DNA of 64,000 nt, from positions 2,100,660 to 2,164,659 of the forward strand of contig NZ_LT745763.1 in assembly GCF_900166595.1 (NCBI RefSeq), written 5' to 3'. Position 1 is the first letter of the stretch. Every line of letters starts with the position of its first letter. A program made the translations under genes and the position numbers. The DNA is from Virgibacillus dokdonensis (GTDB lineage: Bacteria; Bacillota; Bacilli; Bacillales; Amphibacillaceae). The notes beneath the pieces are model-generated. The model did no database searches and was not told the DNA's origin. It worked only from the letters and a program-made list of their open reading frames with translations. Below are positions 5,906 to 11,124 of this stretch, piece after piece.

Positions 5906-6103
5906 TTATGTTCCTATAATAAGCAGAATATATATAAATGCAAAAGTAAACGTTGCGGTCATCGTAATTACATCCATTGCTTTTTCAATCTTAGTGAGCC
6001 TTCTTTGTTTTTTAAGCAATTTGAGTTGGCGATAATACATAATACTTGATATAAATATTAACATAAATGCTAACGCTTTTAAATTTTCTAGAAAGATAAG
6101 CAA
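5906..6103 (-). CDS. Small two-span membrane protein, unknown
   Basis: 65 residues. A hydrophobic segment (about 8-24) is followed by a basic loop (QLKLLKKQRRLTKIEKAM) and a second hydrophobic segment (about 45-63). This predicts a hairpin in the membrane with the loop in the cytoplasm by the positive-inside rule. The start is TTG, with GAAGG about 9 bases upstream. It is downstream of the signalling cassette but separated from it by the hairpin at 6139-6171, so it is probably transcribed alone. No family recognised; it may still be a chance frame. Confidence 0.4.
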   Translation of the reverse strand: MLIFLENLKALAFMLIFISSIMYYRQLKLLKKQRRLTKIEKAMDVITMTATFTFAFIYILLIIGT

Positions 6104-6138: not shown

Positions 6139-6171
6139 CACAGAAGTCTTCTAAAATAGAAGACTTCTGTG
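6139..6171. terminator. Hairpin terminator
   Basis: Perfect 14-bp inverted repeat CACAGAAGTCTTCT (6139-6152) and complement (6158-6171), loop of 5. It lies downstream of the peptide gene and upstream of the small membrane gene on the minus strand. Confidence 0.65.
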
Positions 6172-6284: not shown

Positions 6285-6425
6285 TTAAGACTTTTCAACT
6301 TCAATTGGGTTTAATGTAGGATTAGGTTGAAGTGTTGCTGTCTGATCATATTGAACATTTAAAAATACCAAACCACCTATAAGAAATGTACCACAAACTA
6401 ATAATTTTAAGACTGTTTTTTTCAC
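6285..6425 (-). CDS. Exported signalling-peptide precursor (NprX/PapR/Phr-like)
   Basis: A 46-residue peptide with a positively charged start (MKKTVLK), a hydrophobic core (LLVCGTFLIGGLVFL) and a short polar tail ending QPNPTLNPIEVEKS. The start is GTG with a strong AGGAGGAGAAGG ribosome site. The gene begins 15 bases after the stop codon of an HTH-TPR regulator on the same strand. In the RNPP family (Rap, NprR, PlcR) the gene for the cognate pheromone lies exactly there: a 40-50 residue precursor is exported by Sec, trimmed, and its C-terminal 5-8 residues re-enter the cell to bind the TPR domain. Length, layout and position all fit. The mature sequence is not known; the C-terminal tail is the likely source. 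Too short for usual gene callers. Confidence 0.75.
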   Translation of the reverse strand: MKKTVLKLLVCGTFLIGGLVFLNVQYDQTATLQPNPTLNPIEVEKS

Positions 6426-6440
6426 TTTCCTTCTCCTCCT

Positions 6441-7718
6441 TTATAAATTAAATAATTTCTCATAACTGCTATTAGCTAATTTATAATATTGTAAAGATGT
6501 TTTATACTTACCACTTTTCTCTAAATGGTTACCTAACATTTTTGCATAAAAAGCTAAATACTCATAATTTCTTTTTTTCTCTAGGTAAGGTATAAAATCA
6601 TTAGCTAATACAGATATAAATTGTTTAGTTTCTCCATTTAATAAATGTGTATATACTTTGATAACATAGTCGTGTAAATCATCAGTATATTCGTTATAAT
6701 CATTAATATATGTTTTCAAAACTAATGTTGTTTGATCCAAATAGTTCTTGGCTTTTTTATAATCCCCAACTAAATAAAACTCTTGAATTAATCGAATTAG
6801 GGATACTAATTTAGTTTTTTCTTTAAAGTTATTATTTTGTATTGCAATTAGATAATGTTCGATTGCTTTTTCTGAATTTCCAGTTATTGAATGCAGGTAA
6901 CCCAGATTGTAATGTGCTAGATGAACTACATCTTCATTGTTTTTTAATTCTCCCAATTGTAATGCCAAGTTATAATTTTTGGTAGCCTTATCTAAATTCT
7001 TAATTCTATGGTGCGCAATCCCCAATAGGATATGGCATTGAGCACAGCGAATAAAATTGTAGTTTTTTTGAAAAATTCCCATTGCCTTTTTTGCATATTC
7101 AATACTCTCAAGATCATTCCATAATTTACTATGTTCTATAGATATGATATATTGCAGATCTGCTGTTTCATGTTCTTGAATATTTGCAAAACTGATAGTT
7201 TCTTCTGCTAATTTATAATGTTGTATAGCTTGATGGTGGTACGTTTTAAATGAGTAATAGTTTCCTTGAAATTTATGCCAATAATATTTATGTATAGGGT
7301 TAAATGAACTTGCCATCTCATGGAGTTCGTTAATTTTACATAATGCTTTTTTAAGATCCCGCATAATACAGTAATAACGAATTTTATGAATCTCAAACAT
7401 GAGTGTCTGATCATTAATACTTCGGCCCAGCAACTGCTGCAATTCTTCATATATTTCTGATATTTTCTGTTTATCGAATCGGTCATAAAGCATTCCGTAC
7501 CACTCTTGACATTTTTCTTCAATTTCTACATCTAGCTTTTCCGTAAGCTCAATCTCTAATCGGTTACAAAGCAATTGAATAATTTCAGGACTAGCTTTTG
7601 TCTTCTTATTTTCTATTTTTGATAAGTAGGATAATGAAACAATGCCTTCTGACAATTCCTCTTGTGTCATATTGCGCTTGGTTCGCTGTAATTTGATAAT
7701 AGAACCTATATCTATCAA
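6441..7718 (-). CDS. RNPP-type HTH-TPR transcriptional regulator
   Basis: 425 residues. The N-terminal helix-turn-helix (about 5-60: IIKLQRTKRNMTQEELSEG, YLSKIENKK) is of the XRE/HTH_3 class. It is followed by about nine TPR-like helix pairs over residues 70-420, for example IHKYYWHKFQGNYY, AQCHILLGIAHHRIKNLDKA and HYNLGYLHSITGNSEKAIEHY. The length and design match NprR and PlcR-group pheromone receptors; NprR is about 423 residues. The frame extends to TTG 7733, but AGGTGAT sits between, so TTG 7718 (MIDIGSI) is preferred. The adjacent peptide gene supports a quorum-sensing receptor role. Target genes are not evident here. Confidence 0.85.
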   Translation of the reverse strand: MIDIGSIIKLQRTKRNMTQEELSEGIVSLSYLSKIENKKTKASPEIIQLLCNRLEIELTEKLDVEIEEKCQEWYGMLYDRFDKQKISEIYEELQQLLGRSINDQTLMFEIHKIRYYCIMRDLKKALCKINELHEMASSFNPIHKYYWHKFQGNYYSFKTYHHQAIQHYKLAEETISFANIQEHETADLQYIISIEHSKLWNDLESIEYAKKAMGIFQKNYNFIRCAQCHILLGIAHHRIKNLDKATKNYNLALQLGELKNNEDVVHLAHYNLGYLHSITGNSEKAIEHYLIAIQNNNFKEKTKLVSLIRLIQEFYLVGDYKKAKNYLDQTTLVLKTYINDYNEYTDDLHDYVIKVYTHLLNGETKQFISVLANDFIPYLEKKRNYEYLAFYAKMLGNHLEKSGKYKTSLQYYKLANSSYEKLFNL

Positions 7719-8069
7719 TTTATCACCTACCAATCTCCCATTAATCTGTTATGTATCTAGTATAATTGTAACATAAATCCCAAAAATGCCTATTGGGAAA
7801 ATAATTAGATTTTTTAACTAATTTCATAACGAATTGCTATGATTAATTAATTAGTTTTCCTCATATAGGAAAATTGCGGTAATGAATCCTTTTTATACCT
7901 AAAACAAGAAAAAGCATGTTTAAGTTACAACTTTAAAAATAATTCAAGATAAAAATATGTTAAATAAACCTGCACCAGTGATAGATCTGATTATTTTGAT
8001 TGTTTTTCTGTCTTTTAACCAACAAGAACCTTTCTTTATAAGCTTTATTATTTGCTGTTAATGAAAAAA
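7719..8069. other. Upstream region of the HTH-TPR regulator
   Basis: About 350 bases without a gene. It holds a near-dyad with arms TTTTCC and GGAAAA at about 7855-7873. A related TTGGGAAAAT element lies near 7790. These could be a regulator binding site for the peptide-responsive protein, but this is inference. Nothing else is recognised. Confidence 0.3.
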
Positions 8070-9426: not shown

Positions 9427-10344
9427 TTATGCCACAGCCTGGCGCCGGTATTCTAATGGTGCTAGGCTGTTTAATCTCTTTTGGTATCGTTCCTCATTAT
9501 AAAATGTAATATACTTATCAATATCTTTTTCTAGCTCCTCAAAGTTCTTGTAATTCTTTAAGTCATAGATTTCACATTTAAAATGACCAAAGAAGCTTTC
9601 AATTGGTGCGTTATCAATACAATTACCTACACGTGACATACTGCGTTTCATCCCAGCTTCTGCCGTAAGATAACGATATTCCTTTGATGTGTATTGTGAA
9701 CCACGATCGCTGTGAATTAAAGGGGCTGCATCGGGATTTGCCTTTATAGCTTCTTTTAGCGTGTTCATAACCAAAGGATTGTCATTATAGCGCCCAACCT
9801 GATAGGCGACAATCGAACCGTCATAAAGATCTTTAATAGCACTTAAATAAGCCTTGTTACCAAAGCCATACGTCAGATGCGTAATATCCGTTACCCACTT
9901 CTCATTCGGATTCTCCGCAGTAAATTCACGATTCAAAATGTTTTCTTCAATATTGATATAGCTTGTCTTTGTGGAATAGCCATTCGAGCGACGAATATGC
10001 GATTTTAAGCCCATTTGAATCATTAAGCGTCTAATTCTTTTCTCGTCATATTGTTTCTTATATTTGCGATTGATCACCATAGTTATTCGACGATAGCCGA
10101 AGTTACCGTTATACTTTCTGAATTCCTCTTTCACTTTTTTCATGAGCCACTCATTTTCCCTTTGTCCTTCTGTAGGTTCATGTTTCAACCATTTATAGTA
10201 TCCAGATCGGGATACATCTAAAATTTCACAGAGTAATAGAATGGGTATTGTTGTCTCCTTGTGATAGTCATGAATCGCTTGAAATTTAGCTAGATGTTTA
10301 CCTAGTCGCGCTGTCCCATCCCCCTTTCGATTTCCTTCAACTTT
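9427..10344 (-). CDS. IS3-family transposase OrfB (expressed as OrfAB by -1 frameshift)
   Basis: Integrase-core protein with the rve/DDE signature. The visible order is WVTDITHL (first D), then IHSDRGSQYTSKEY (second D), then NAPIESFFGHFK (catalytic E). The HTH_21 region GNFGYRRITMVI precedes it. The frame has a TTG near 10188, but it is open up to the slip site A-AAA-AAG at 10341-10347 inside orfA. This is the normal IS3 arrangement: a -1 shift makes the active OrfAB transposase. No internal stops or missing catalytic residues, so the element may be active. Confidence 0.88.
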   Translation of the reverse strand, partial: KVEGNRKGDGTARLGKHLAKFQAIHDYHKETTIPILLLCEILDVSRSGYYKWLKHEPTEGQRENEWLMKKVKEEFRKYNGNFGYRRITMVINRKYKKQYDEKRIRRLMIQMGLKSHIRRSNGYSTKTSYINIEENILNREFTAENPNEKWVTDITHLTYGFGNKAYLSAIKDLYDGSIVAYQVGRYNDNPLVMNTLKEAIKANPDAAPLIHSDRGSQYTSKEYRYLTAEAGMKRSMSRVGNCIDNAPIESFFGHFKCEIYDLKNYKNFEELEKDIDKYITFYNEERYQKRLNSLAPLEYRRQAVA

Positions 10345-10997
10345 TTTAATAAGCCATTCTCCGCCTCTAAATACTGATTACGGTGTTCCAATTCTTTAAT
10401 ACGAAGTTGTAATTTCTCCTCTTCGGTAAAGCTAGCCTTTGTTTCTAGTGTTTTTCCACGACGATCCTGAAGACCCTGTTTCCCATCTTTTTCATATTTA
10501 CGCAGCCAGCTATATACTTGTTGATAAGAAACGTTATACTTTTTAGCCGCCTCATGATAATTGTGCTCGTTCGCAATCGTATATTGCACAATTTCAATGC
10601 GTTCTTGAAGTGTGGTTTTACGCCCTTTTGTCATGGTTTCTCTTCCTTTACTAGTAGATTTTATCTCTTTCCCACTAGTATACTGGTTTATCCATTGACG
10701 TAAAACCGAATTAGATGAAATATTAAACTTCTCACAAGTCATTCTCAGACTGCCTTCTCCATTTAGATAAAATTCAACAGCTTCCCTTTTCAGTTCGCCG
10801 GAATACTTCTTCCATGTCCTCGCTTCCTTTAAACCATCCACCCCATCTGCTTCGTATTTACGCACCCATGAGTTAATCGTAGTACGGTCAACAGCGTATT
10901 CTTTAGCAATCGTACTGACAGACGCCATCCCCTCAATCACACGTAATACCGCCTCGATTCTTTCATCTAACGTATGTTTACTTCTTCTTTTAGACAT
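10302..10997 (-). CDS. IS3-family transposase OrfA with three HTH units
   Basis: 231 residues, longer than the usual OrfA of about 100-170. Three helix-turn-helix units can be seen at about residues 8-55 (STIAKEYAVDRTTINSWVRKYEADG), 65-110 (CEKFNISSNSVLRQWINQY) and 125-175 (AAKKYNVSYQQVYSWLRKYEKDG). A leucine-rich coiled coil (LRIKELEHRNQYLEAENGLLKKL) follows. The first and third share the phrase SWxRKYExDGxxGL, so a domain duplication is likely. The frame extends to TTG 11012; ATG 10997 starts MSKRRSKHT and is preferred. The last codons overlap orfB across the slip site. Confidence 0.85.
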   Translation of the reverse strand: MSKRRSKHTLDERIEAVLRVIEGMASVSTIAKEYAVDRTTINSWVRKYEADGVDGLKEARTWKKYSGELKREAVEFYLNGEGSLRMTCEKFNISSNSVLRQWINQYTSGKEIKSTSKGRETMTKGRKTTLQERIEIVQYTIANEHNYHEAAKKYNVSYQQVYSWLRKYEKDGKQGLQDRRGKTLETKASFTEEEKLQLRIKELEHRNQYLEAENGLLKKLKEIERGMGQRD

Positions 10998-11124
10998 AGA
11001 AAATGCCCCCAATATCGTAGTAAAGAGTTTTTATTATTTCTCTGTCTACCATATTGGGAGCATATCATCATATTGAACGAGGGCTATTTTCTAACTATTG
11101 CTTTTTTGATAGTATGAAACGTTA

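Follow-up and report, generated by a model that had tools for sequence, protein, structure and literature searches.

A probable quorum-sensing pair in Virgibacillus dokdonensis: an NprR-like receptor, its exported-type propeptide and a predicted two-site operator

The window analyzed here, a stretch of 64,000 nucleotides from the Virgibacillus dokdonensis genome, encodes on its minus strand an HTH-TPR receptor of 425 residues followed by a 46-residue peptide with an exported-type N terminus. With a probability of roughly 0.8, the two genes form an NprR-like, nine-TPR quorum-sensing pair of the RRNPPA group, in which the peptide would be exported, trimmed, re-imported and bound by the receptor, which would then activate its own operon. 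The layout of the pair and its conservation, the architecture of its operator, the covariation between receptor and peptide, and the duplication of the pair are observed directly. Systems of this kind are already known; the additions are the pair, its code, its operator and a possible regulon.

Classification of the receptor

The receptor gene (6441..7718, minus strand, stop codon included) starts with TTG. Its product matches HTH_3 at residues 8-60 (E = 9.8e-12) as well as TPR repeats. RRNPPA receptors have been delimited as TPR proteins of 250-500 residues with an adjacent propeptide of 10-100 residues (PMC10075063), and the window receptor lies within this size range, with TPR_1 and TPR_12 matches and a predicted model to account for its repeats. 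Pfam matches and model together place nine TPR hairpins behind the N-terminal HTH, a trait of the NprR subfamily; NprR is described as having 18 helices in 9 TPRs (PMC4970707). Judged by sequence and predicted model, the receptor belongs with the nine-TPR members of RRNPPA (Rap/NprR) and, like NprR, carries an HTH.

In profile searches NprR is the best natural match, but in fold comparison Rap chains score equally well or higher. The receptor is 18% identical to NprR, and only one of the five peptide-contact residues of Bacillus thuringiensis NprR (R126, Y165, W167, H201 and R343) is kept, as R120, itself present in just 22 of 82 alignment rows; the other four are replaced by T159, H161, K198 and T345. 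Because these residues are mostly not kept, we call the receptor NprR-like rather than NprR. Contact residues belong to one receptor and would change along with its peptide. The absence of a DNA-binding domain, typical of Rap proteins, is contradicted by the HTH_3 match. The phage-borne character of AimR is likewise not seen, 55 of 65 named receptors in our tree being located at a chromosomal camS/gatC site. A phage origin of the pair was considered and dropped, one viral-contig scan having returned no relative of the receptor.

The similarity to Rap bears on an alternative in which the pair is the same but the receptor acts mainly like Rap, blocking Spo0F or another response regulator, and uses its HTH for autoregulation only. 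Rap structures indeed match as well as or better than NprR, both functions coexist in NprR according to PMC4970707, and two of the four Spo0F-binding residues of NprR (D107, Y118, E188 and Y223) have equivalents in the window, namely E182 (E or D in 76 of 82 rows) and Y220 (82 of 82). However, D107 and Y118, also needed for Spo0F inhibition, are replaced by I101 and K112, the latter in 69 of 82 rows, in an alignment that is unsure at 18% identity, and the composite operator described below also precedes other genes in relatives. We regard a mainly Rap-like role as unlikely, although it is the strongest of the rivals considered.

The propeptide gene and its conservation

The peptide gene (6285..6425, minus strand, stop codon included), an ORF satisfying a fixed small-ORF rule, starts with GTG. 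The N terminus of the propeptide is basic and is followed by a hydrophobic stretch under a Kyte-Doolittle rule, features that would suit Sec-type export. The 15-nt gap between receptor stop and peptide start (6426..6440, minus strand) contains a strong AGGAGG-type ribosome-binding site, both genes share one reading frame, and an intrinsic-terminator-like hairpin of 15 pairs with a T run (6139..6171, minus strand) probably ends the receptor-peptide unit. The gene arrangement given in the initial annotation, a 425-residue receptor, 15 nt and a 46-residue peptide ORF with a strong ribosome site, is thereby confirmed. Past the terminator there is a 65-residue membrane-type ORF (5906-6103, minus strand); the same frame is not open in the homologous V. 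chiguensis DNA.

No match to the 46-residue peptide was found in Pfam, NCBIfam or PHROGs. It had been described as unannotated and below normal gene-calling size, which does not hold: the protein database already contains the peptide (P0001, a cluster of two to which the window's own seems to belong) as well as a Virgibacillus peptide of 93% identity (P0002), for which NCBI gives the name 'hypothetical protein' and UniRef 'Phr family secreted Rap phosphatase i...'. Nor has the system gone unnoticed in the genus. Besides this Phr-type peptide name, receptors of this kind are named NprR or NprA in some sources, and Virgibacillus is listed with NprR in PMC9765709, as a count in a table and, in the part of that paper available, without a description of this pair. 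No other paper containing both 'NprR' and 'Virgibacillus' was found in the literature searched.

To see whether the layout exceeds chance, we kept 80 related receptor loci out of 321 confirmed ones and applied the small-ORF rule, which requires 33-120 residues, a ribosome site, K/R near the N terminus, a hydrophobic stretch and a start between -60 and +150 of the receptor stop. A small secreted-type ORF lies 3' of the receptor in 68 of the 80 loci, whereas among the other stop-to-stop frames of at least 120 codons in the same loci such an ORF lies at 4 of 373 ends; this control counts shadow frames, so that not all of its frames are genes. The idea of an RNPP-type receptor with a cognate exported-type peptide is thus supported by layout and conservation, the signalling role itself being proposed. 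The initial annotation had suggested this comparison of relatives and had named a lack of conservation of the small gene, or a tail varying with a disrupted frame, as evidence against the pair; the small gene turns out to be conserved and the tail retains a conserved core. In one V. chiguensis copy (L037:978-1318, minus strand) the receptor is followed by two tandem peptide genes with near-identical starts and C-terminal parts and different middles.

The 12 loci without a peptide ORF comprise one broken receptor (L078), four Aquibacillus, six members of the Oceanobacillus oncorhynchi/sojae group and one Parageobacillus. Closer inspection of these loci revealed no ORF combining a ribosome site, a basic N terminus and the core, and three of them (L137, L146 and L149) have short hydrophobic frames only. 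Ten of the receptors that are peptide-less by the rule (L130-L132, L137, L138, L141, L142 and L145-L147; Aquibacillus and the O. oncorhynchi/sojae group) stand behind camS at the ancestral site. Possibly, such receptors listen to other signals; a survey has called receptors without a pheromone gene possible 'eavesdroppers' (PMC9765709).

The mature signal

Tails of 68 of 69 propeptides (67 named ones and that of the window) could be aligned on a proline; L077 has no such anchor. The resulting consensus is E/D-x-[E/H/Q]-P-x-[I/V]-[F/L]-S. Information content drops beyond core position +4/+5, and later residues vary. Nine of the 68 propeptides (L110, L115, L121, L122, L129, L134, L135, L139 and L143) contain tandem core copies, up to six, with the core lying within the repeated unit, and three stop exactly at core position +3 (LDLQPGAF, YEAEPRVL and KDAEPSIF). 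Since both the repeat propeptides and the three core-terminal ones point to it, the signal is probably the internal core [E/H/Q]-P-x-[I/V]-[F/L], which by sequence alignment corresponds in the window to TLQPNPT (peptide residues 31-37; 6315..6335, minus strand, coordinates derived by hand from the ORF); the covariation described below was also used for this prediction. TLQPNPT is identical in the window and V. chiguensis, where flanking and last residues differ. P-D-I-V of the NprX pheromone SKPDIVG fits the family core P-x-[I/V]-[F/L], the window's own core being P-N-P-T. Tandem pheromone copies have been reported before, in 17 of 17 oversized NprR propeptides (PMC9765709), and as such are not new; what is new is their use to place the core here. 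Among the matches listed in a literature search on EPSIF, the papers were unrelated.

The initial annotation had placed the signal in the C-terminal tail, within its last 5-8 residues, which is the general rule among RRNPP propeptides (PMC10075063). This is probably wrong and we give it little credence, because the core lies inside the tail and conservation falls past core position +4/+5, the repeated unit contains the core, three propeptides terminate at it, and the peptides of the window and of V. chiguensis agree in the core but not in their last residues. Moreover, NprX propeptides are named in PMC10075063 as an exception to the C-terminal rule.

Covariation between receptor and peptide

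Four pheromone positions were each compared with the variable receptor columns. For position -1, immediately before the proline, the top columns are 202, 198 and 197, and the codons for K198 to D202 occupy 7113..7127 (minus strand, coordinates derived by hand). Position 198 aligns with NprR H201, the NprR-NprX contact site, where H201 is reported to stack on the lysine at -1 of NprX (PMC4970707). E at -1 is paired with K198 in 48 of 48 cases, Q with K198 and D202 in 6 of 6 (Terribacillus and Virgibacillus), and other residues with K198 in only 3 of 14, the three (L113, L118 and L119) having H at -1. The pattern recurs in a test set of 33 further non-redundant receptors, each <95% identical to every named one (25 with a peptide, 24 with an anchor): E goes with K198 in 16 of 17, Q with K198 and D202 in 3 of 3, and other residues with K198 in 0 of 4. 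These receptors are 60-92% identical to their nearest training receptor and are not fully independent.

A shuffle at the level of clusters (300 rounds, 30 clusters formed at 70% identity) ranked columns 200, 202, 197 and 198 second, third, fifth and eleventh of 389; column 367 came first and column 383 also above 198, neither with a known reason. The pooled Fisher value of 2e-13 for the association at -1 ignores relatedness and is not a probability. Covariation at pheromone positions +1, +2 and +3 is confounded with the Virgibacillus clade and was set aside. An AlphaFold fold of a fused receptor-peptide read-through chain, with 21 read-through relatives in the alignment, gave a peptide pLDDT <50 and neither supports nor refutes docking.

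Promoter and operator

The receptor promoter has a conserved order of elements on the minus strand: a dyad, TTTTCCT-N5-AGGAAAA (7855..7873), predicted to be the distal operator from its recurrence upstream of related receptors; TTTCCCAA (7793..7800), 56 or 66 bp further on at the expected -35 position, the predicted proximal operator; and an extended -10-like box, TACAAT (7765..7770), 30 nt from the start of TTTCCCAA. The dyad, already pointed out in the initial annotation, is real and belongs to this conserved promoter. With at most one mismatch to TTTCCT-N3-7-AGGAAA allowed, the 260 bp before each receptor (20.8 kb in all) contain 67 dyads, spread over 55 of 80 loci; the remaining 559.6 kb of the loci contain 42. 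The 25 loci without an upstream dyad at this threshold include the peptide-bearing L133-L135 (Heyndrickxia and Weizmannia). Peptide-less clades have none at this threshold, except L141 and the broken L078, and six genomes of the O. oncorhynchi group (G123, G124, G131, G132, G134 and G136) match a looser composite pattern before the receptor.

Downstream of the dyad in receptor promoters stands TTTCYCAA. In the 55 of 81 promoters (window counted) that have both, with at most one mismatch in the dyad, the two centres lie 55.5-57 bp apart in 43 promoters and 65.5-66.5 bp apart in 12, and never at a distance between 57 and 65.5 bp; the loci are related and the spacings therefore not independent events. 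At two mismatches, 62 promoters have a dyad, two of them outside both spacing groups (49.5 and 54 bp). Ten base pairs are about one helical turn. Among 72 promoters having both elements, the -10-like box follows the start of TTTCYC at 30 nt in 62, 31 nt in nine and 36 nt in one. Two sites on one helix face would suit a tetramer with two DNA-binding sites, as reported for NprR-NprX (PMC4970707). Because the proximal site occupies the -35 position, we infer activation. An operator or box for NprR was not found in the available part of PMC4970707, nor a description of the present operator in the literature searched.

Genome context and duplication

A CamS-cluster ORF lies upstream in 68 of 80 named loci and a GatC-cluster ORF downstream in 58; P5C-dehydrogenase (upstream, 35 of 80) and PutP (downstream, 33 of 80) clusters are optional neighbours, one representative of each of the four clusters having been identified. 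The camS/gatC location is the ancestral site of the pair, and the window copy is a displaced duplicate elsewhere. That the ancestral copy often sits between P5C dehydrogenase and PutP could mean that the pair controls proline uptake or catabolism. This is improbable, however: both neighbours are missing in many relatives in which the pair is still at the camS/gatC site, the stretch from the peptide gene to putP shows no operator enrichment, with 2 dyads in 19.85 kb, and neither gene adjoins the window copy.

A tree of 76 receptors comprised the window receptor, 65 named ones and 10 others. Here the window receptor falls in a clade of 15 (support 97/92) beside ancestral-site copies from the same species group. 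Five named copies in this clade and three of the window genome lie away from the camS site, a count excluding seven (G002 and G004). The window genome has four full receptors and one truncated. The four are 71-84% identical pairwise in the HTH (residues 1-62) and 46-63% in the rest, and SLSYLSKIEN is common to all; the four full pairs have the same composite operator, a near-identical recognition helix and different peptides. No shared target genes stood out among the neighbours of displaced copies.

Displaced duplicates do decay, as seen in the truncated receptor of the window genome (G000:C15:3220255), a copy split in two in G004 and one interrupted by an internal stop in G007, and the window copy might itself be a decaying duplicate without function. 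We consider this very improbable, since the window copy retains the full receptor, operator, ribosome sites, peptide frame and core, and its orthologue in V. chiguensis, the nearest named relative, is 96% identical, the sole length change in the peptide of the latter being a whole codon.

Upstream of the GNAT and GGACT genes preceding the window receptor are transposase-like ORFs, of IS3 type by eye (9427-11012, minus strand); the V. chiguensis orthologue has other genes there, and the GGACT region is represented by a 138-bp piece only. Virgibacillus-type receptors, one of them at the camS site, occur in an assembly titled Roseburia sp. 1XD42-34 (NZ_QWLJ01; L072, L076 and L078), a name that is probably wrong.

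A candidate regulon in relatives

As a search pattern for the regulon, the dyad alone is unspecific, with 143 forward-strand matches against 124 for the reversed control (at most two mismatches); TTTCCCAATATGAATT alone gave 82 against 49 forward and 78 against 50 reverse (at most three mismatches). We scanned 156 family genomes with the composite pattern TTTCYY-N5-RRRAAA-N38-62-TTTCYCAA, which yielded 101 matches against 31 for the reversed pattern. Fifty-nine of the 101 are at receptors and 42 elsewhere, the latter set being only about 11 above control. In the window genome there are four matches (control 1), all before its four full receptors, and no target with the composite pattern was found beyond these.

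Receptor-like spans (68-70 or 78-80 nt) occur in 17 of the 42 non-receptor matches, the other 25 having other spans. Matches outside ORFs of at least 100 residues number 11 of 17 in the former and 3 of 25 in the latter (Fisher p = 0.0007), and 6 and 1 of these, respectively, have a -10-like box (p = 0.012). L331-L338, which make up eight of the 11, were selected on their good half-sites and their span ahead of the span control. By the rule, the box is absent from L331 and L335, and also from L342-L344.

The genes behind these eight sites can be assigned tentatively. L331 precedes a 40-residue ORF resembling, by eye, a class III lanthipeptide precursor, with a LanKC-type synthetase (500 bits, below the NCBIfam cut-off of 575). 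L332, from V. chiguensis, stands before genes for three proteins: one PqqD-like, one a lasso B2 protein scoring above cut-off, and one a cyclase of the asparagine-synthase type that at 210 bits stays below its cut-off of 525; this cyclase has no close match in the window genome, the best being 21% identical. A secreted matrixin-type protease follows L333, secreted-type proteins without assignment L334, and a small exported-type peptide, an NHL protein and an MFS transporter L335. L336 is associated with a small ORF with a weak squalene-hopene-cyclase match, and L337 and L338, from two genomes of the Terribacillus group, with a Rap-type protein and a Phr-like peptide. Tentatively, the non-receptor genes bearing the operator (lasso peptide, class III lanthipeptide, protease and rap-phr) may represent a regulon in relatives. 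Its interest lies in the kind of genes: exported peptides, a protease and rap-phr.

The truncated remnant in the window genome (L048:3-1100, minus strand), which has the HTH part only and a one-mismatch dyad, adjoins a gene for a YcaO/SagD-type thiazole/oxazole peptide maturase. A displaced V. chiguensis copy (L074:53-2053, minus strand) adjoins an SdpB-family gene (60 bits, below cut-off), preceded by two small genes that by eye are SdpA-like and exported, without a family match and with no matching operator seen before them.

Discussion

The preferred reading, a quorum-sensing pair, can be put as a sequence of steps in which export, processing, import, binding, tetramer formation and activation are inferred from the features above. 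The signal-like N terminus would direct the 46-residue propeptide out of the cell; cuts on either side would leave a short peptide from its interior, around TLQPNPT, to be re-imported. Inside the cell, the concave TPR surface of the receptor may take up the peptide so that the pre-proline residue (Q here, E in most relatives) comes near K198/D202. The peptide-bound receptor, probably a tetramer as in NprR, would bridge the dyad and the proximal TTTCCCAA, operator sites separated by some five or six helical turns, take the place of a -35 element and activate its own receptor-peptide operon in a positive feedback.

Among known systems, NprR-NprX of the Bacillus cereus group (RRNPPA nine-TPR clan B) is similar in its HTH and 18 TPR helices, its downstream propeptide, a pheromone located away from the propeptide C terminus and fitting the family core, and the tetramer-interface residues Y223/F225, which are kept here. 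The two differ in that NprR H201 is K198 here, the pheromone lysine of NprX is E/Q, identity is 18%, and several paralogues per genome occur, with an ancestral site by camS and gatC. Rap-Phr of Bacillus shares the TPR fold and propeptide layout, whereas Rap has no DNA-binding domain and the present receptor has an HTH and a conserved operator. PlcR-PapR, AimR-AimP and AloR-AloP likewise consist of an HTH-TPR receptor with an adjacent propeptide, as reported in part in PMC12700828; PlcR, however, has five TPRs according to the same source, and AimR structures are found at lower Z, about 19-20, in the fold comparison of the receptor. RRNPP_detector uses the same two-gene receptor/propeptide signature and has linked RiPP clusters to candidate quorum-sensing systems, reporting 21 new candidate subfamilies and 196 biosynthetic clusters adjacent to such a system (PMC10075063). 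There the link is adjacency, whereas here it is a shared operator at a distance.

A wider and more speculative reading, which we put at somewhat less than even odds, is that the duplicated pairs form a polyglot switchboard. They would combine one recognition helix and a helically phased two-site operator with private peptide words, so that several signals feed one regulon and each other's promoters. In relatives, exoproduct genes (lasso peptide, class III lanthipeptide, secreted metalloprotease and rap-phr) may further have adopted the operator as a plug-in quorum promoter for public goods, with no adjacency needed.

For the pair itself, a generic 'HTH-TPR regulator plus hypothetical peptide' is turned into testable predictions of a pheromone word, the residues that read it and an operator. 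In a recent study, dormancy is the main association of nine-TPR folds, and biosynthetic clusters are associated with five-TPR ones (PMC12700828). Should the operator prediction be true, RiPP clusters under quorum control could be found even where no quorum-sensing gene is adjacent, and exoproduct control in halophilic Bacillaceae would be linked to a receptor family with nine TPRs.
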